Shown piece after piece: positions 16,024-23,176 of a stretch of DNA of 47,826 nucleotides (within the stretch, counting starts at the first letter, position 1; every line of letters starts with the position of its first letter). The stretch spans positions 1-47,826 of the forward strand of contig DATGFS010000045.1 of assembly GCA_035308905.1 (NCBI GenBank), read 5' to 3'. The position numbers were made by a program, and so were the translations under genes. Under the pieces are notes generated by a model. It saw nothing but the letters and a program-made list of their open reading frames with translations. It was not told where the DNA came from and did no database searches. This DNA comes from a bacterium. Lineage in GTDB: Bacteria; Sysuimicrobiota; Sysuimicrobiia; Sysuimicrobiales; Segetimicrobiaceae.

Positions 16024-16800
16024 ATGCACGACACAGGGGGGCACATGCAACGCGCCGGCCGCACCGGACCGAAGGGAGCGGAGCACGACCGCTTGACCGC
16101 GCTGCTGGCGTCCTCGCCGCTTCTCAAGGGCCTGAGCCCGGGCCAGTTCCGCGAGGTCGCCGCGTCGGCCCAGCATCGCACGGTCAAGCCGCACGGGCTC
16201 TTCTTCCGCCAGGGTGACCACGCGACGTTCATCTATGTGCTGCTGACCGGTGAAGTGAAGCTGACGCACATCCACCCCGACGGCCAGGAGGTGATCCACC
16301 GCATGATCTGGCCGGGCGAGGTCTTCGGCGGCATCGCGGCATGGGGCGAGACCGTGTACCCGGTGTCGGCCGAGGCGATCCAGGCGAGCGAAGCGTTCGC
16401 CTGGGAAGGTCCCACGATGATGCGCCTGCTCGAGCGGTACCCGGCCGTCGCGCTGAACACGCTGCACCTCATGATCGCGCGCGTCCACGAGCTGCAGAAT
16501 CGCGTGACGGAACTGACGATGGAGCGGGTGGAGCAGCGCCTGGCACGAGCGTTCCGCCGGCTCGCGGCGCGCGTGGGGCGCCGCGTCGATCGGGGGATCC
16601 TCATCGACCTGCCGCTGTCCCGACAAGACATCGCGGAGCTGACGGGAACGACCCTCTACACCGCCAGCCGCATCATCAGCCATTGGGAGGCGCTCGGCGT
16701 CGTCGAGGCCGGCCGGGAGCGCGTGCTGATTCTGAGTCCTGATCGGCTCGACGCCATCGCGGAGGCCTCGCCGGTGAAGTCCGGGAAGACGGTCGAGTGA
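16024..16800 (+). CDS. Crp/Fnr-family transcription regulator (NnrR/Dnr-like)
   Basis: Up to 258 residues (ATG 16045 is an alternative start). The N-terminal cyclic-nucleotide-type effector domain (FFRQGDHATFIYVLLTGEVK, then PGEVFGG) is followed by the long dimer helix and a C-terminal winged helix (LSRQDIAELTGTTLYTASRI). The recognition helix keeps the Ser-Arg pair (TASR) that reads TTG half-sites in Fnr-type proteins. The N-terminal cysteines that bind an Fe-S cluster in Fnr are absent, so a nitric-oxide or heme-sensing type (Dnr/NnrR-like) is more likely. Neighbours are nitrogen-oxide genes, two of which carry a TTG-N8-CAA box upstream. Confidence 0.88.
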   Translation: MHDTGGHMQRAGRTGPKGAEHDRLTALLASSPLLKGLSPGQFREVAASAQHRTVKPHGLFFRQGDHATFIYVLLTGEVKLTHIHPDGQEVIHRMIWPGEVFGGIAAWGETVYPVSAEAIQASEAFAWEGPTMMRLLERYPAVALNTLHLMIARVHELQNRVTELTMERVEQRLARAFRRLAARVGRRVDRGILIDLPLSRQDIAELTGTTLYTASRIISHWEALGVVEAGRERVLILSPDRLDAIAEASPVKSGKTVE

Positions 16801-16825: not shown

Positions 16826-16867
16826 TTGTTCCAGCGCAAAGACCCCAACGCCGATCCGCGGTTTAAT
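16826..16867 (+). promoter_or_regulatory. Crp/Fnr box and -10 for the hemerythrin gene
   Basis: TTGTTCCAGCGCAA (16826-16839) is a TTG-N8-CAA dyad. Its centre (16832.5) is 41.5 bases before a start point at about 16874, and the hexamer TTTAAT (16862-16867) sits exactly at -12 to -7. This is the geometry of a class II Crp/Fnr-activated promoter. The same 16 bases (TTGTTCCAGCGCAAAG) recur at 20069. The adjacent Crp/Fnr gene is the obvious candidate activator. Confidence 0.7.
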
Positions 16868-16911
16868 GGGGATGGCCGCCGCCGAAGACGCGGAGGCGTG
16901 GAGGGACGGCG

Positions 16912-17634
16912 ATGACTACGGCAACGGCACGTGAGGCACTGCGGCACCATCACGAGGAGCTGGCCGGCAAAATGACAGGATACGCGGACGCGCTGACCGG
17001 CGGCGCGTCCGCGGCCGATCCGGCACCGTTCGTTCGGTTCCTGCGCGAAGAGCTGCTTCCCCACGCGGCCGGAGAGGACCGGTACCTGTATCCGGCGGTC
17101 GAGCCGCTGCTCAAGGCGCACGGCATGGCCACCGCGACGATGCGGATGGATCACCGGGCGATCGAGCGCTACGTCGGGGCGATCGAGGAGACGGCGGGAC
17201 GTCTCCGGAACGCCGAGGGCGCCGCGCGCATCGAGGCCGTGCGGGATCTCACGCGCTTGACGTGGCAGCTCCAAGCGCTGTTCGAGGTCCATTTGCAGAA
17301 GGAAGAGCAGGTGTACATGCCGGTCCTGGGGCAGTACGCGCCGGAGGCCGAACAGCAGCGCATCATCGCGCAGATGCACGAGGCGCCCGGGGAGCGGCCG
17401 GCCGCAGACGCGCAGCCCGACCTCGACGTCAGGAGGCTGGCGCCCGCCCGGCGTCACGCGGCCATCTTCGCGACGTTTGAGACGCTCGGTTCGGGGCAGG
17501 CGTTCGTCCTCGTCAACGATCACGATCCCAAGCCGCTCTACTACCAGTTCCAAGCGGAGCAGCCGGGGAAGTTCACCTGGACGTATCTCGAGCAGGGGCC
17601 GGAGGTCTGGCGGGTGCGCATCGGCCGGTCATGA
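16912..17634 (+). CDS. Hemerythrin-like HHE domain plus DUF2249 protein
   Basis: 240 residues. The N-terminal four-helix HHE domain has candidate di-iron ligands in RHHHEE (about 11-16), LLPHAAGED (His51, Glu55), MDHRAIE (His81, Glu85) and FEVHLQKEEQ. The C-terminal 80 residues (RHAAIFATFETLGSGQAFVL, then NDHDPKPLYYQF) are a DUF2249 domain. Hemerythrin-DUF2249 proteins accompany denitrification and nitric-oxide detoxification genes and may protect or repair iron-sulfur centres. The gene has its own Crp/Fnr-type promoter and is followed by a MIP18-type gene. Confidence 0.9.
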   Translation: MTTATAREALRHHHEELAGKMTGYADALTGGASAADPAPFVRFLREELLPHAAGEDRYLYPAVEPLLKAHGMATATMRMDHRAIERYVGAIEETAGRLRNAEGAARIEAVRDLTRLTWQLQALFEVHLQKEEQVYMPVLGQYAPEAEQQRIIAQMHEAPGERPAADAQPDLDVRRLAPARRHAAIFATFETLGSGQAFVLVNDHDPKPLYYQFQAEQPGKFTWTYLEQGPEVWRVRIGRS

Positions 17635-17683
17635 GCTCGCATGCGCGCCCGCGCAGCGCCGGGAGGGCTGAGGTGGCGGTTCG

Positions 17684-17980
17684 ATGGTGACGGCCGAGCA
17701 GGTGCGGGACGCGCTCCGCGGGGTCGTCGATCCCGAGCTTGGAGCGAGCATCGTCGATCTCGGCCTGGTCTACGACGTCCAGGTGATCGGGTCCAAGGTG
17801 TTTGTCACGATGACACTGACGACGCCGCTGTGCCCGATGAACGAGATGATCCCGGAGGCCGTGCGCCAAGCCGCCGCCGCACTCCCGGACGTCGGCGGCG
17901 TCGATGTCGAGCTGGTGTGGACACCTCCCTGGGAGCCTCAGATGATGTCCCGCGAGCTCAAGGAGCGGTTCGGCTGGTGA
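17684..17980 (+). CDS. MIP18/DUF59-type Fe-S cluster assembly factor
   Basis: 98 residues: VRDALRGVVDPELGASIVDL then GLVYDV, and LTTPLCPMNEMIPEAVRQAA with the conserved Cys near residue 50, ending in WTPPWEPQMMS. This is the SufT/PaaD/MIP18 fold that helps insert iron-sulfur clusters. Next to hemerythrin-DUF2249 genes such proteins are thought to support maturation or repair of Fe-S enzymes damaged by NO. Start ATG 17684; it is likely cotranscribed with the upstream gene. Confidence 0.9.
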   Translation: MVTAEQVRDALRGVVDPELGASIVDLGLVYDVQVIGSKVFVTMTLTTPLCPMNEMIPEAVRQAAAALPDVGGVDVELVWTPPWEPQMMSRELKERFGW

Positions 17981-17998
17981 CCCCCGCCGGCGCGCCCT

Positions 17999-18502
17999 CT
18001 ATGGTGCGCCGCGGACCAGCATCACGCCGAGCGCCAGGGCTGAGACCGAAAGGATGAGCATCAGCCGTCCGACCCATGCGGCCGCGCGGCGCAGGCGCCG
18101 CGTGCGCGGCGAGCCGGGATCCGCGAGCGCTGCCTGAGTGAACCGGGGGCCCACGATGAGATCGTGCCAGGCACTGATCGCAAGGATCAGCGCCACGAGC
18201 ACGAGCTTGATGCCGAGGATGTGACCGAATCCGCCCTGCCACAGCGATCCGTCCCGCACCTCCGCCCAGCCGTATCCACGAAAGTGGAGGGTCCAGATCC
18301 CCGTCGCAACGAGCAGGCCCAGCGTCGTCCAGGCGATCCACCGGAATTGAAGCGCGACGGCGTGGATCAGCGGCACGGCCACACTCTGATACGCGGGCCT
18401 GCGGAGGACGGGCAGGACGGCGGCCGCGAGGAACACCATGCCGCCGATCCAGATGCACGCAGCGAGGATGTGCAGCGACACGGCAAGCACGTACCACGCC
18501 AT
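17999..18502 (-). CDS. CopD-like membrane protein
   Basis: 167 residues from an ATG at 18502 that overlaps the stop of the upstream NnrS gene (TAATG). Four membrane helices: YVLAVSLHILAACIWIGGMV, HAVALQFRWIAWTTLGLLVA, ILGIKLVLVALILAISAWHD and LMLILSVSALALGVMLV. Conserved His residues in helices 1, 2 and 3 suggest heme or copper binding as in CopD/DUF4149-type proteins. It is the last gene of the cupin-NnrS-CopD operon. A longer upstream start would lie inside NnrS and is rejected. Confidence 0.8.
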   Translation of the reverse strand: MAWYVLAVSLHILAACIWIGGMVFLAAAVLPVLRRPAYQSVAVPLIHAVALQFRWIAWTTLGLLVATGIWTLHFRGYGWAEVRDGSLWQGGFGHILGIKLVLVALILAISAWHDLIVGPRFTQAALADPGSPRTRRLRRAAAWVGRLMLILSVSALALGVMLVRGAP

Positions 18503-19572
18503 TATCGCCTCCGGGCTTCCAGCGCGGTGCGCAGGGTGTTGGCCACGAAGGCCAACACCGCGAGGACGCCGAGTAACCCGCCCCACCGCCGGATGTCGCC
18601 GAGGCCGCTCAGATCGCCGCACAAACGCACGATCAGCGAGACGTTGAGGAGCGCGAGGGGCGCGTAGAAATCAGCCCGATACGGGACCGTCCCGCCCAGC
18701 ACCGCCGGCAGGATGATCGGTGCGTGCGCGAAGATCATGGCGAACACGAAGCCGAGGAAAAGCGCGTGCAGCGTCGCGTCGTAGAGCGGACCGGCGATTG
18801 ATCCGCCGAACAGGATCCATAGGCTCCCGCTGATCCCCAGCCAGACATAGCCGGAGAGCAGGCTCACCGCGATGAACCGCGGGAGTCCGGCCTGCCGGAC
18901 CGTGTATCGCGCGATGTCGAAACGCAGGAGCCATAGCGCGAGCCCGAGCATCCCCAGTCCTTGGAGACGCGCGCCGGCGTCTGCCTCGCGTAACGTCAAG
19001 AGGAGCCCGGCCAGATAGACCGAGACGACAGTCAGGAAAATGCCGCGGCTCAGCGGTGCCGGCCGGCCGAGACGGCTCAGCTCCAGGCGTTCGCCCACGA
19101 TCGTGAGCACGAGGAAGCCACCGAACCAGAATACCGCGCCGTAGACGGGCACGCCCGCGAGCCAGCGGGCGTTACCGATCATCCAGGCGAGCGCTCCCAC
19201 TCCCATCACGCCGGTGAAGAACGCCGGGTGGCGGCCGAAGCCGGACGCGAAGATCGCCACCAGCCCTCCACTCGCCAGAGTCATGAGCACCGGGGCCGCC
19301 GGCGCAGGAACGCCGAGCAGCAGGACGAGGCCGCCGAGTCCACTCAGCAGCGGCACGGCGTATGCGGCCGGAGGGCCGAGCGCTACGGCCCGCTCGAGGC
19401 CGATGAGGGTCCCGAGGAAACCCGACACCATGAGCGGCCCATGAGCCAGGGGCAGGGCCGGCTCGAGCGGCGGCAGCGGCCACCCGATTCGGATCAGTCC
19501 CGCCCACAGACCGGCCAGCAGCGCCAGCACCCCGAGCGCGGCGAGGGGCAGGCGGATCCGGCGGGCGATCAC
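18502..19572 (-). CDS. nnrS: NnrS family heme-copper membrane protein
   Basis: 356 residues with about 12 hydrophobic segments. Features fitting NnrS: PLAHGPLMVSGFLGTLIGLE near residues 41-60 and ATLHALFLGFVFAMIFAHAP (about 265-284) with paired His residues. NnrS binds heme and copper and protects cells from NO-driven metabolic stress; it is regulated with denitrification genes. The gene starts at GTG 19572, 8 bases after the cupin stop, and ends in a TAATG overlap with the CopD-like gene. Confidence 0.85.
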   Translation of the reverse strand: MIARRIRLPLAALGVLALLAGLWAGLIRIGWPLPPLEPALPLAHGPLMVSGFLGTLIGLERAVALGPPAAYAVPLLSGLGGLVLLLGVPAPAAPVLMTLASGGLVAIFASGFGRHPAFFTGVMGVGALAWMIGNARWLAGVPVYGAVFWFGGFLVLTIVGERLELSRLGRPAPLSRGIFLTVVSVYLAGLLLTLREADAGARLQGLGMLGLALWLLRFDIARYTVRQAGLPRFIAVSLLSGYVWLGISGSLWILFGGSIAGPLYDATLHALFLGFVFAMIFAHAPIILPAVLGGTVPYRADFYAPLALLNVSLIVRLCGDLSGLGDIRRWGGLLGVLAVLAFVANTLRTALEARRR

Positions 19573-19580
19573 CCGCGAAC

Positions 19581-19949
19581 TTATTGCCAGCGTCCGCGCC
19601 GCAGCCCCGCGGCGACCCCGGCGTGGTCCGCATCGGTCGGCGGCGGAGTGACGACGTTGAGGACAACGAGCCGGGTGGCGGCCCTGAGCCCTCGGGCCGT
19701 TCCCGCCGGCGCAAACGCGACGGCTCCCGGCCCGATCGCTTCCTCGCGGTCGCCGAGGGCCAGGGTTCCTTCGCCTTCCAGCACGGCGATCGTGAGGTCG
19801 ACCCCCGGCCGGTGAACGGGGATGAACTGACCGGGTTCAAGGCAGACCAGCAGCACTTTGACGCGGTCGCTCTGAGCGATCGGGACGGGATTGAAGCGCT
19901 CGGGCGTGAACGCCACGGCCGTCCGGTACGAGCTCATCAGGGCGCTCAT
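19581..19949 (-). CDS. Cupin-domain protein
   Basis: 122 residues of a single beta-barrel: PGQFIPVHRPGVDLTIAVLE then EGEGTLALG (first cupin motif) and GPGAVAFAPAGTARGLRA (second). One His of the usual metal set is visible, so metal binding is uncertain. The start at 19949 is chosen for its strong GGGAGGAG; an earlier in-frame ATG adds 25 low-complexity residues. It heads the leftward cupin-NnrS-CopD operon, sharing the control region 19950-20155 with the Rrf2 gene. A small-molecule sensor or NO-related metal chaperone is plausible. Confidence 0.82.
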   Translation of the reverse strand: MSALMSSYRTAVAFTPERFNPVPIAQSDRVKVLLVCLEPGQFIPVHRPGVDLTIAVLEGEGTLALGDREEAIGPGAVAFAPAGTARGLRAATRLVVLNVVTPPPTDADHAGVAAGLRRGRWQ

Positions 19950-20068
19950 CGACGCTCCTCCCTTACACGCTGCCGTGCCGTGTTCCCCCGCGGTGTCCCC
20001 GTCGGCGGCTACGCCGCCTCTCAACGTCGTACGCCGTGAAGCCTATCGCGAAGCGGGGCCGGCCGTCT

Positions 20069-20111
20069 TTGTTCCAGCGCAAAGCCGCGGCCGAGCGCGC
20101 TCTGGTATTCA
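20069..20111 (+). promoter_or_regulatory. Second copy of the Crp/Fnr box, with -10 for the Rrf2/nirK genes
   Basis: TTGTTCCAGCGCAA (20069-20082) is identical over 16 bases to the box at 16826. The dyad centre at 20075.5 predicts a start near 20117. TATTCA at 20106-20111, preceded by TG at 20103-20104 as in an extended -10, lies within one base of the expected -10 position. The box also faces the divergent cupin-NnrS operon, though no clear -10 is seen in that direction. Confidence 0.65.
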
Positions 20112-20155
20112 AATATCAGATCAAAAAGGTCCGTTGAGTCCGTCTTGGAGGGGCA

Positions 20156-20752
20156 ATGAAGCTCAGTCGAGAGAGCAAGTACGGCCTGGCCGGCCTGATC
20201 TACCTCGCCCGGCAGCGGCCCGGCACCGTGCTGGCCGTGAAGACGGTGGCCGCCGCGCAGGCCCTGCCCGGAACGTTTCTCGCGAAGACGTTCAGCCGGC
20301 TGGCGCATCATGGGGTCCTACGCTCGCATCGCGGGCGGCGGCGGGGCTACGAACTCGCCAGAAATCCCCGGGAGATCAGCGTCCGCGAGATCCTCGAGGA
20401 CATCGAGGGACCGGATCTGTTCGCGCGCTGCATCTTCTGGAGCGAGGGGTGCTCGGAGCAGCGGCCCTGCCTGTTGCACGAGTCCTGGAATGCGATCCGG
20501 CCGCGGATCGCCGAATCGCTGGCGGCACTGACGCTCGCCGACTGCGCAGATGGCCGAACGGCGCCCATCGCGCTCTCACAAGGATGGCGGATCGGCCGTC
20601 CTTCGAACGAAGCTCAAACGGGGAGGGAGACTCATGTTGATGTCGATCGCGAAGTGTCTCGTTCACCGGTGCGCACCGCTGGCGGCCCTGGCCGCGCTCG
20701 CGGCGCTACTCGTCGCTCCGGGAGCGCCGACGGCCTCGGCGCAGAACGGTGA
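20156..20752 (+). CDS. Rrf2-family regulator with three-cysteine cluster motif (NsrR-like)
   Basis: 198 residues. The N-terminal winged helix (MKLSRESKYGLAGLIYLARQ, LPGTFLAKTFSRLAHHGVLR, GRRRGYELAR) is followed by Cys92, Cys99 and Cys105 in an RCIFWSEGC...PC arrangement. In NsrR and IscR three such cysteines hold an iron-sulfur cluster that senses NO or cluster status. GGAGGGGC precedes ATG 20156. Rrf2 proteins usually end near 150 residues; here the frame runs on and overlaps the first 119 bases of nirK in another frame, and the tail is low-complexity. It likely controls nirK and the divergent nnrS operon. Confidence 0.9.
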   Translation: MKLSRESKYGLAGLIYLARQRPGTVLAVKTVAAAQALPGTFLAKTFSRLAHHGVLRSHRGRRRGYELARNPREISVREILEDIEGPDLFARCIFWSEGCSEQRPCLLHESWNAIRPRIAESLAALTLADCADGRTAPIALSQGWRIGRPSNEAQTGRETHVDVDREVSRSPVRTAGGPGRARGATRRSGSADGLGAER

Positions 20753-21596
20753 GAATGGGTTCTACGACGCCGCGCTTCCGGCCGTCGGGAACCAGCACGT
20801 CAAGCAGATCACGATCGTGGCCCGCGACACCGTCCAGGCGATCGCCCCGGGCGTCAAGGTGCCGCTCTGGACCTTCAACGGTTCGGTCCCGGCGCCGTTG
20901 ATTCACGTGCGGCAGGGCGACGAGGTCCGGGTGGCATTCGTGAACAAGACGCCGATGTCGCACTCTGTCGACTTCCACGCCGCGACAACGCCCTGGAACG
21001 TGTGGTACCAGCCGGTAGCCGCCGGCAAGACGCTCAACTTCAGCTTCATCGCCAAGGACCCCGGCGTGTTCATGTTCCACTGCGGCACGCCGCCGGCGTT
21101 CATGCACATCAGCAGCGGCATGTACGGCGCCGTCATCGTCGACCCGAAGACCCCGCTGCCGCCGGCCAAAGAGTTCGGGCTGATCGAGAGCGAGTTCTAC
21201 GTCCGGGCGGGCGCGAACAACACCTACCAGCCGGATGCGCAGAAGGTCCTCGACGTCAAACCGGACTACGTGGTGTTTAACGGCATCGCCGACCAGTACC
21301 AGGAGCACCCGCTGACCGTACGCGCCGGGGAGCGCATCCGCCTGTACGTGCTGAACGCGGGGCCAACGTTGTTCTCGGCGTTCCACGTGATCGGCTGGAT
21401 CTTCGACAAGGTCTACGTCGACGGCAACCCGGCCAACGTGTTGCGCGGCGTGCAGACCTACGGCATCCCGCCGGGCGGCGGCGCGATGTTCGAGTTGACG
21501 ATCGACCAGCCCGGACTCTATCCGTTCGTCACGCACGCGTTCGCGTACACCAGCAAGGGCGCCGTGGGCGTCATCAAGGTCCTGCCCGCCAAGTAG
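20634..21596 (+). CDS. nirK: Copper-containing nitrite reductase (NirK/AniA type)
   Basis: 320 residues with a signal peptide (LAALAALAALLVAPGAPTAS, cut near ASA), so exported. NirK reduces nitrite to nitric oxide. Two cupredoxin domains carry a complete set of sites: type 1 copper His110, Cys150, His158, Met163; type 2 copper His115, His149, His301; catalytic Asp113 and His251 (in FHVIGWIFDKVY, close to AniA). ATG 20634 is chosen because GGGAGGGAG lies just upstream and the signal peptide begins there. The gene is downstream of the Rrf2 gene and inside a nitrogen-oxide cluster with nnrS and hemerythrin genes. A two-domain multicopper oxidase of other function is the alternative. Confidence 0.82.
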   Translation: MLMSIAKCLVHRCAPLAALAALAALLVAPGAPTASAQNGENGFYDAALPAVGNQHVKQITIVARDTVQAIAPGVKVPLWTFNGSVPAPLIHVRQGDEVRVAFVNKTPMSHSVDFHAATTPWNVWYQPVAAGKTLNFSFIAKDPGVFMFHCGTPPAFMHISSGMYGAVIVDPKTPLPPAKEFGLIESEFYVRAGANNTYQPDAQKVLDVKPDYVVFNGIADQYQEHPLTVRAGERIRLYVLNAGPTLFSAFHVIGWIFDKVYVDGNPANVLRGVQTYGIPPGGGAMFELTIDQPGLYPFVTHAFAYTSKGAVGVIKVLPAK

Positions 21597-21787: not shown

Positions 21788-23176
21788 TCAGGAAATGCGC
21801 CACCGCCATTCGAGCGTCAGCACTCCGGTGAGCGCCGGCGGCACCCACCGATACGCCAGCATGTAGGCGAGAATGAACGCCCCGGCGGCAAACAGCGCAG
21901 CGCCTCCCTGCGCGGCCCCGGGCGCGTCGGTCCATATGCCGTAGGCCAGCCCCACGACCCCGAGGTTGCTGAGCCACAGCGCCACGCGGCCCGGCCGGGG
22001 ATTGTAGGGCGCCGGCTGGCGCGGGATCGCGAGCACGTCGGGGATTGTCGCGCGGTAATACCACATGAGAAACGGCGTAATCTTGTAGAGCTGTCCGATA
22101 ATCGCCTGAGTCACCCATCCCAAGAGGAAGAGCGTCGCGGCAACCTCGCCAAGCCGGTCGGGCGGATCGGTCTGGAGCAGCCCGGCGCCCCACCCTGCGG
22201 CGATCGCGGCCAGCACAATGGAGTAGGCCGCGACCGCGTACCAGTGCGCGACGTTCAAATCCGGAGCCGGACTGCGCCGGCGGGCAATCACATGGACGAT
22301 CTCGGCGACGAAGAGGAGGAGCGCGCCCGCGGCGATGAACGCCGCAGCGCGCAGAAGCCACGCTGCGGGAGCGGCGACGCCGGCCACTACCGAGGCGATG
22401 GCGGCGACCGCCAACATCAGGATCGCGGCACCCCGTCGCGTATTCGCGACGCGCGCGCCGTGGACGAGCGGCACCAGCCGGTAGAACACCCCGACCACCA
22501 TTAAGCCGAACCAGCCGCCGAGCCCAAGGGTGAGGTGGACGACGAGCCCTCGATGGGCGACGAGAATACCGGGCCAGAAGACCCACCGGAGATTGGCCGA
22601 GAGCAGCGTGCCCCACAGCGCGACCAGCACGAAGCATCCTAATGCCGCGGGGATATGCGGACTCAACACGGCGCGCTTCGGCCCCGCCGAGACGACCGTC
22701 GCGCCCAGCACCGCGACGAACCACCACGCCGCCAGGTTGACGCCGGCGCCTCCGAGGGCGGCGAGACCATAGCGGCCGGCTGCGAACCCGGCAAGAACGG
22801 TCACCGTGCTCGCGGCGAACGTCAGGAACAGCCACGGGATCGTGCGCTCGCCGCGAATCCTCACGCCGAGCAGAACCGGCGCCATCTGCGCCGCGGCGCC
22901 CAGGATCGTCATCGTCCCCCACGCGAGCGTGGAGAGATGCGTGGCGACGAAGGCCGGACGCGATTCGTAGGCGCCCTGCGCGAGCGATCCGGCTGTGGCT
23001 ACGAGTGCCAGGCCAAGCGCAGGAAAGGCAATACCGACCGACGTCCACGTGAACCAGGTGCCGAAGGTGAAGGCGAGCGGTCCGCCGGCAGGCCCGCTCT
23101 CCGCGGGCGGGGTCGGGCCGTGGGGGGCCGGCCGGGACGTGCCGTTAGCGCGTTTTGCCACGGACGGGTCGAGCAC
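21788..23176 (-). CDS. Polytopic heme-copper/NnrS-like membrane protein
   Basis: 462 residues with about 12 membrane helices after a proline-rich cytoplasmic N-terminus. Histidines lie in helix positions typical of heme-copper proteins: FVATHLSTLAWGTMTILG, LVAHRGLVVHLTLGLGGWFG, VFYRLVPLVHG and EIVHVIARR. It looks like the NnrS/cytochrome-oxidase-subunit-I-like proteins found with nitric-oxide genes, but the full ligand set of an oxidase or NO reductase is not evident. It starts at GTG 23176, overlapping the end of the DUF488 gene by 32 bases, and converges on nirK. A role in NO metabolism is inferred from context. Confidence 0.72.
   Translation of the reverse strand: MLDPSVAKRANGTSRPAPHGPTPPAESGPAGGPLAFTFGTWFTWTSVGIAFPALGLALVATAGSLAQGAYESRPAFVATHLSTLAWGTMTILGAAAQMAPVLLGVRIRGERTIPWLFLTFAASTVTVLAGFAAGRYGLAALGGAGVNLAAWWFVAVLGATVVSAGPKRAVLSPHIPAALGCFVLVALWGTLLSANLRWVFWPGILVAHRGLVVHLTLGLGGWFGLMVVGVFYRLVPLVHGARVANTRRGAAILMLAVAAIASVVAGVAAPAAWLLRAAAFIAAGALLLFVAEIVHVIARRRSPAPDLNVAHWYAVAAYSIVLAAIAAGWGAGLLQTDPPDRLGEVAATLFLLGWVTQAIIGQLYKITPFLMWYYRATIPDVLAIPRQPAPYNPRPGRVALWLSNLGVVGLAYGIWTDAPGAAQGGAALFAAGAFILAYMLAYRWVPPALTGVLTLEWRWRIS

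Follow-up and report, generated by a model that had tools for sequence, protein, structure and literature searches.

Two identical copies of a short palindromic box very probably serve as docking sites for the Crp/Fnr-type regulator encoded beside the first of them. As judged from their sequences, the regulator and its operator pair are of the known NnrR kind, a well-supported assignment that is new for this lineage, in which we found no report of an NnrR-type operator pair. NnrR, known from soil proteobacteria, turns on nitrogen-oxide genes. We hold it to be highly probable that both boxes are operators of this NnrR-clade protein, which would act as a class II activator of a hemerythrin operon and a cupin operon. 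The stretch of DNA that was analysed (the window, 47,826 nucleotides) carries the following features of this system.

16024 to 16800, plus strand: Crp/Fnr regulator of the NnrR clade, 258 amino acids (Pfam cNMP_binding and HTH_Crp_2; tree; residue alignment).
16826 to 16839, plus strand: NnrR-type box 1 with a TTG-N8-CAA core; the identical 16-mer extends to 16841.
16912 to 17634, plus strand: hemerythrin-DUF2249 protein (PF01814 and PF10006), first gene past box 1.
17684 to 17980, plus strand: SufT/PaaD-like metal-sulfur cluster assembly factor (PF01883).
17999 to 18502, minus strand: CopD-like membrane protein (PF05425), last gene of the minus-strand operon.
18502 to 19572, minus strand: 12-helix membrane protein without a Pfam domain, with a predicted heme-copper-oxidase fold.
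19581 to 19949, minus strand: cupin protein (PF07883), first gene of the minus-strand operon, whose order is kept in relatives.
20069 to 20082: NnrR-type box 2, palindromic, in the divergent region.

The 16-base sequence TTGTTCCAGCGCAAAG was present in exact copies at 16826-16841 and 20069-20084, as the earlier note had claimed, and no further match with three or fewer mismatches was detected in the window. A search of the genome (4,006,053 bases, 81 contigs) with the 14-base core TTGTTCCAGCGCAA returned two exact matches, the window's own pair, no one-mismatch match and 21 two-mismatch matches; the reversed pattern, as a control, gave more (43). Box 1 lies between the stop codon of the Crp/Fnr gene (16800) and the ATG of the hemerythrin gene (16912), and box 2 between the cupin start and the ATG of an Rrf2 gene (20156). 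The random or intragenic occurrence named in the earlier note as evidence against its claim was thus not seen, both exact core matches being intergenic. As the box is genome-unique and intergenic at both places, and as sharing of an exact 16-mer between the two box gaps has a chance expectation of about 2.5e-5, the repeat was considered real. The palindrome has 5-bp arms and an 8-base loop, and box 1 lies 26 bp past a stop codon, features that would also fit an RNA hairpin such as a terminator, or a repeat arisen by chance. This reading is highly improbable given the chance expectation, the lack of any terminator-like or T-run site at the boxes and the conservation of the box across phyla with a -10 at fixed distance. 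Neither a terminator nor an ordinary sigma-70 promoter was found in either box gap.

The protein encoded at 16024-16800 contains no cysteine and so lacks the Fe-S-binding cysteines of FNR, which confirmed the earlier description of a Crp/Fnr gene without them next to box 1. A maximum-likelihood tree of 53 sequences had as its reference points FNR and CRP of E. coli, DNR of P. aeruginosa, NNR of Paracoccus and FixK/FnrN of rhizobia. One clade of 26 rows, with a support of 99/99, united the protein and its orthologues with seven proteobacterial NnrR; this clade also takes in proteins from Chloroflexota, Acidobacteriota, Planctomycetota, Desulfosarcina and Myxococcota. FNR/FixK, DNR/NNR and CRP were all placed outside. 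By this tree the protein is a member of the NnrR clade. Its recognition helix (GTTLYTASR, in NnrR GTTLHTVSR) follows the NnrR-type pattern GTTL[HY]T[VA]SR, without a Glu at the CRP-181 position. Tyr93 of R. sphaeroides NnrR has been reported to be important in vivo (PMC8510549). Matched through Rhodobacterales and Rhizobiales NnrR relatives, Tyr112 of the window's protein falls on the YP motif that full-length proteobacterial NnrR have at 92-93 and is the Tyr93 equivalent, which the residue alignment showed to be absent from the MEDS-Crp paralogues of the window's family.

Orthologues of the regulator are patchy in the phylum, being found among 43 genomes in 7 of the 12 of the window's family and in four genomes of two other families. 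Its best plasmid-borne matches were Azospirillum and rhizobial regulators. Most of these best matches are Crp/Fnr regulators encoded next to genes for nirK-nirV, NnrS, DUF2249, DUF1858 and metal-sulfur assembly, and the labels of plasmid proteins (NnrR, NNR, FixK) come from gene context and similarity, not from tested function. A relative on a Desulfosarcina plasmid adjoins norR, hcp and DUF1858 genes.

The operator was compared with published sites. TTGTTCCAGCGCAAAG agrees with the NnrR consensus ctTTGcgnnnncgCAAag (PMC1274295), with one half-site, TTGTT on the left, departing from TTGCG; boxes of relatives read TTGCGC..GCGCAAAGA. The window's box is one base different from the NnrR-dependent nirK box of B. 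diazoefficiens, TTGTTGCAGCGCAA (PMC6710368), and likewise one base off the Azospirillum box between nnrR and DUF2249, TTGTTCCAGCACAA. Five genomes of the window's family (G001, G002, G005, G007 and G009) have NnrR-type boxes next to the orthologous regulator gene or the operon to which it belongs. We also examined 80 NnrR-clade loci from named genomes of Chloroflexota, Acidobacteriota, Planctomycetota, Desulfobacterota, Myxococcota and Alphaproteobacteria. The pattern TTTG[CT]N6[AG]CAAA gave 75 matches in 56 of the 80 loci. Controls with the pattern reversed or re-spaced gave 2-3, and an FNR-like variant 4; because many loci are close relatives, these counts are not independent events. Genes linked to the box behind nnrR in other phyla include nosZ, hcp, an nrfA-like gene, DUF1858 and hemerythrin-DUF2249. 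The proposal of a Crp/Fnr operator was upheld, the box being of the NnrR type, genome-unique and enriched beside NnrR-clade regulators. The adjacent cysteine-less protein likewise held as its likely regulator, as it belongs to the NnrR clade and most orthologues have the box beside their gene. What the earlier note had called the operator of a regulator of this lineage stood as a Crp/Fnr regulator and its operator, and that wording proved too vague: an NnrR box with an NnrR-clade protein is not particular to the lineage. Since the boxes are NnrR-type sites, a known denitrification switch would also be present in a poorly known lineage.

Another Crp/Fnr protein, for example the MEDS-domain Crp on contig 30, could bind the boxes instead of, or along with, the adjacent protein, because MEDS-Crp loci of the family carry the same kind of box. 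In the tree, MEDS-Crp is sister to the NnrR clade, and in four genomes (G003, G004, G008, G011) the upstream intergenic region holds TTG[CT]G[CG][CT]AGCGCAA, in 3 of the 4 with a TAnnnT -10. These sequences suggest that MEDS-Crp is a type of regulator that shares its operator with NnrR. However, no such box turned up around the MEDS-Crp genes of the window's own genome (L086), the recognition helices differ (TSPYT in MEDS-Crp, TTLYT in the 16024-16800 protein) and the box of most orthologues stands next to the NnrR-like gene, which makes binding by another regulator unlikely. Fusions of a MEDS domain to an NnrR-like Crp were observed at L088 (G008), L091 (G011), L089 (G003) and L087 (G004) and at positions 68025-72521 of contig 30 of the window's genome (G000:C30), and in several relatives the MEDS-Crp genes adjoin PAS-domain sensor genes.

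At a class II Crp/Fnr promoter the box centre lies at -41.5 from the start site. In the window, two -10 elements come into question.

16862 to 16867, plus strand: -10-like TTTAAT, 22 bp past box 1 (centre -41.5), facing hemerythrin-DUF2249; relatives have a peak at offset 22.
20040 to 20045, minus strand: -10 TAGGCT, 23 bp from box 2, facing the cupin operon.

Offsets of TAnnnT were measured after CAA, with every box taken in both orientations. A peak was found at offset 22, which brings the centre of the box to -41.5 as at class II promoters. Here non-alphaproteobacterial loci had 13 of 50 against a background of 0.46 per offset, and the window's family 6 of 24 (background 0.05). In alphaproteobacteria, TAnnnT stood at offsets 21, 22 and 23 in 34, 22 and 11 of 240 (background 0.32). 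TTTAAT at box 1 is without the A at position 2, and TAGGCT at box 2, at offset 23, misses the ideal spacing by one base; together with box 2 (20040-20082) it made up the one place in the genome where box plus TAnnnT matched. We infer class II spacing at the boxes from the fitting distance of these -10-like hexamers and from the strong lineage-wide peak. Class II spacing as such, as proposed earlier, is in line with the family and cross-phylum peak. The more specific claim, a -10 at this distance in both copies, held for TTTAAT at 16826 and was not confirmed at 20069, where the hexamer that faces nirK (GTATTC/TATTCA) is not a TAnnnT and TAGGCT faces the cupin gene.

The genes on the other side of box 2, and a second conserved element in front of them, bear on what this box controls.

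20104 to 20117: second conserved element GGTATTCAAATATC upstream of Rrf2-nirK, a candidate Rrf2 operator or promoter.
20156 to 20638, plus strand: Rrf2-family regulator (PF02082) with a C-x6-C-x5-C motif.
20550 to 21596, plus strand: NirK-like two-domain copper oxidase (TIGR02376, 185.6 bits, under the cut-off of 296.3).

The earlier note had placed the second box before the divergent cupin and Rrf2-nirK genes. Box 2 lies 72 bp ahead of the Rrf2 ATG, and alphaproteobacterial NnrR activates nitrite reductase genes (PMC1274295), both of which would fit box 2 mainly controlling Rrf2-nirK. The NirK-like gene neighbours box 2, but the -10 of box 2 faces away from it: no TAnnnT was found at the right distance toward Rrf2-nirK, and the relative G001 has the same asymmetry, with TACAGT at offset 22 toward the cupin gene and no TAnnnT toward Rrf2. 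Furthermore, a separate element, GGTATTC-N2-ATATC, precedes Rrf2 in the window's genome and in G002; G001 has a looser version of it there. In G002, Rrf2-nirK is relocated without an NnrR box upstream and the GGTATTCAAATATC-type element is kept. Control of nirK by box 2 is accordingly doubtful; the -10 favours the cupin operon, and the link of box and nirK is not conserved in the relatives examined. The conserved element together with the C-x6-C-x5-C motif, with which the Rrf2 protein likely carries an Fe-S cluster, suggests that nirK is under the Rrf2 protein, so that Rrf2-nirK is more likely governed by its own Rrf2 element than by box 2. The 20104-20117 element overlaps the place of the nirK-facing -10 proposed in the earlier note.

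NO sensing, DNA binding and activation by the 16024-16800 protein would, if the two operons are its targets, proceed as follows. By homology to NnrR, it would sense nitric oxide or a related nitrogen oxide. The regulator dimer would bind TTG-N8-CAA centred at -41.5 and recruit RNA polymerase as a class II activator. Rightward from box 1 this would switch on hemerythrin-DUF2249 and the Fe-S assembly factor, which is probably in one operon with it, and leftward from box 2 the cupin protein, the heme-copper-fold membrane protein and CopD. An Anaerolineae locus has a similar two-domain hemerythrin-DUF2249 gene behind nnrR and a box, and an assembly factor of the SufT/PaaD kind also adjoins rhizobial nnrR.

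With alphaproteobacterial NnrR (R. sphaeroides, B. diazoefficiens; PMC1274295, PMC6710368) the window's protein has in common the clade, the recognition helix and the Tyr93 equivalent. The box there is likewise TTG-N8-CAA with a CGCAAAG half, and the neighbours are of the same kinds (nirK, DUF2249, metal-sulfur assembly factor). The window differs in its phylum, in the left half-site TTGTT, in having two boxes genome-wide and in that its strongest predicted promoters lead to hemerythrin-DUF2249 and to cupin/heme-copper-fold/CopD, not to nor or nirK. Outside Proteobacteria, a Nitrospira MAG was also reported to have an NnrR-clade protein with the Tyr93 equivalent, and 19 target genes were predicted there with a motif from other bacteria (PMC8510549), whereas the window offers two unique boxes, and box and -10 are conserved across relatives. 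FNR/FixK and DNR/NNR share with the window the Crp/Fnr superfamily and the TTG-N8-CAA core, and DNR/NNR also the link to nitrogen oxides; however, they form separate tree branches and keep the recognition-helix Glu, where the NnrR clade has Tyr or His, and FNR has Fe-S cysteines that the window's protein lacks. A precise nitrogen-oxide regulator-operator pair would be at hand for a largely uncharacterised bacterial lineage. The NnrR box with -41.5 spacing is readable in several phyla, and NnrR targets would thus become predictable in uncultivated bacteria tied to nitrous oxide turnover.

The regulon in the window's genome appears to consist of just the two box sites, as degenerate box patterns showed no excess over reversed controls there. 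The genome search for further boxes at class II distance, recommended in the earlier note, gave only the 20040-20082 site, and the small regulon it expected is in line with this. Elsewhere in the family the regulon seems larger, because box plus -10 exceeded controls in G007, G009 and G005 (e.g. 14 against 2 in G007, TTGC form). Among the genes downstream of these sites are those for FAD-dependent reductases, for DUF1858 and for a protein resembling molybdopterin oxidoreductases, and part of the sites may belong to other Crp paralogues. In G007 the numerous box-plus-TAnnnT sites, on contigs C73, C9, C46 and C68, point to a regulon of far greater size. Two single one-mismatch matches (G009:C66:441 and G009:C100:3698) were set aside, as no supporting gene context was seen.

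The 18502-19572 protein had been labelled NnrS in the earlier note, an identity which the sequence did not support. It gave no Pfam match up to E = 5, BLASTP showed no similarity to either of two annotated NnrS proteins, and a profile of it, made from five close sequences only, so that very remote kinship is possible, did not match seven NnrS proteins. It is syntenic with cupin and CopD in relatives, and in G034 CopD lies immediately behind nnrR and a box. An AlphaFold2 model, built from five sequences (mean pLDDT 73), aligned over 346-348 residues with CcoN of cbb3 oxidase (Z 26.9) and with nitric oxide reductase NorB (Z 25.1). In a second look the fold comparisons with CcoN and NorB spanned Z 24-27; Foldseek by itself gave a weak result (best E 0.09, to NorB). 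From the model, a divergent heme-copper-oxidase fold is predicted. The five orthologues have only three invariant histidines, and a canonical heme-copper site needs more than three. This unannotated membrane protein is a candidate NO-handling factor. Tentatively, NnrR, box and fixed -10 spacing may form a cross-phylum nitrogen-oxide switch that here drives an undescribed NO-handling or NO-reducing heme-copper-fold family; if true, this role would be new to the lineage. A second large membrane protein, at 21788-23176 on the minus strand, was at first taken to be NnrS-like and has only a weak COX1 match (E 0.0038); it may be a further heme-copper-type protein of the nirK locus.
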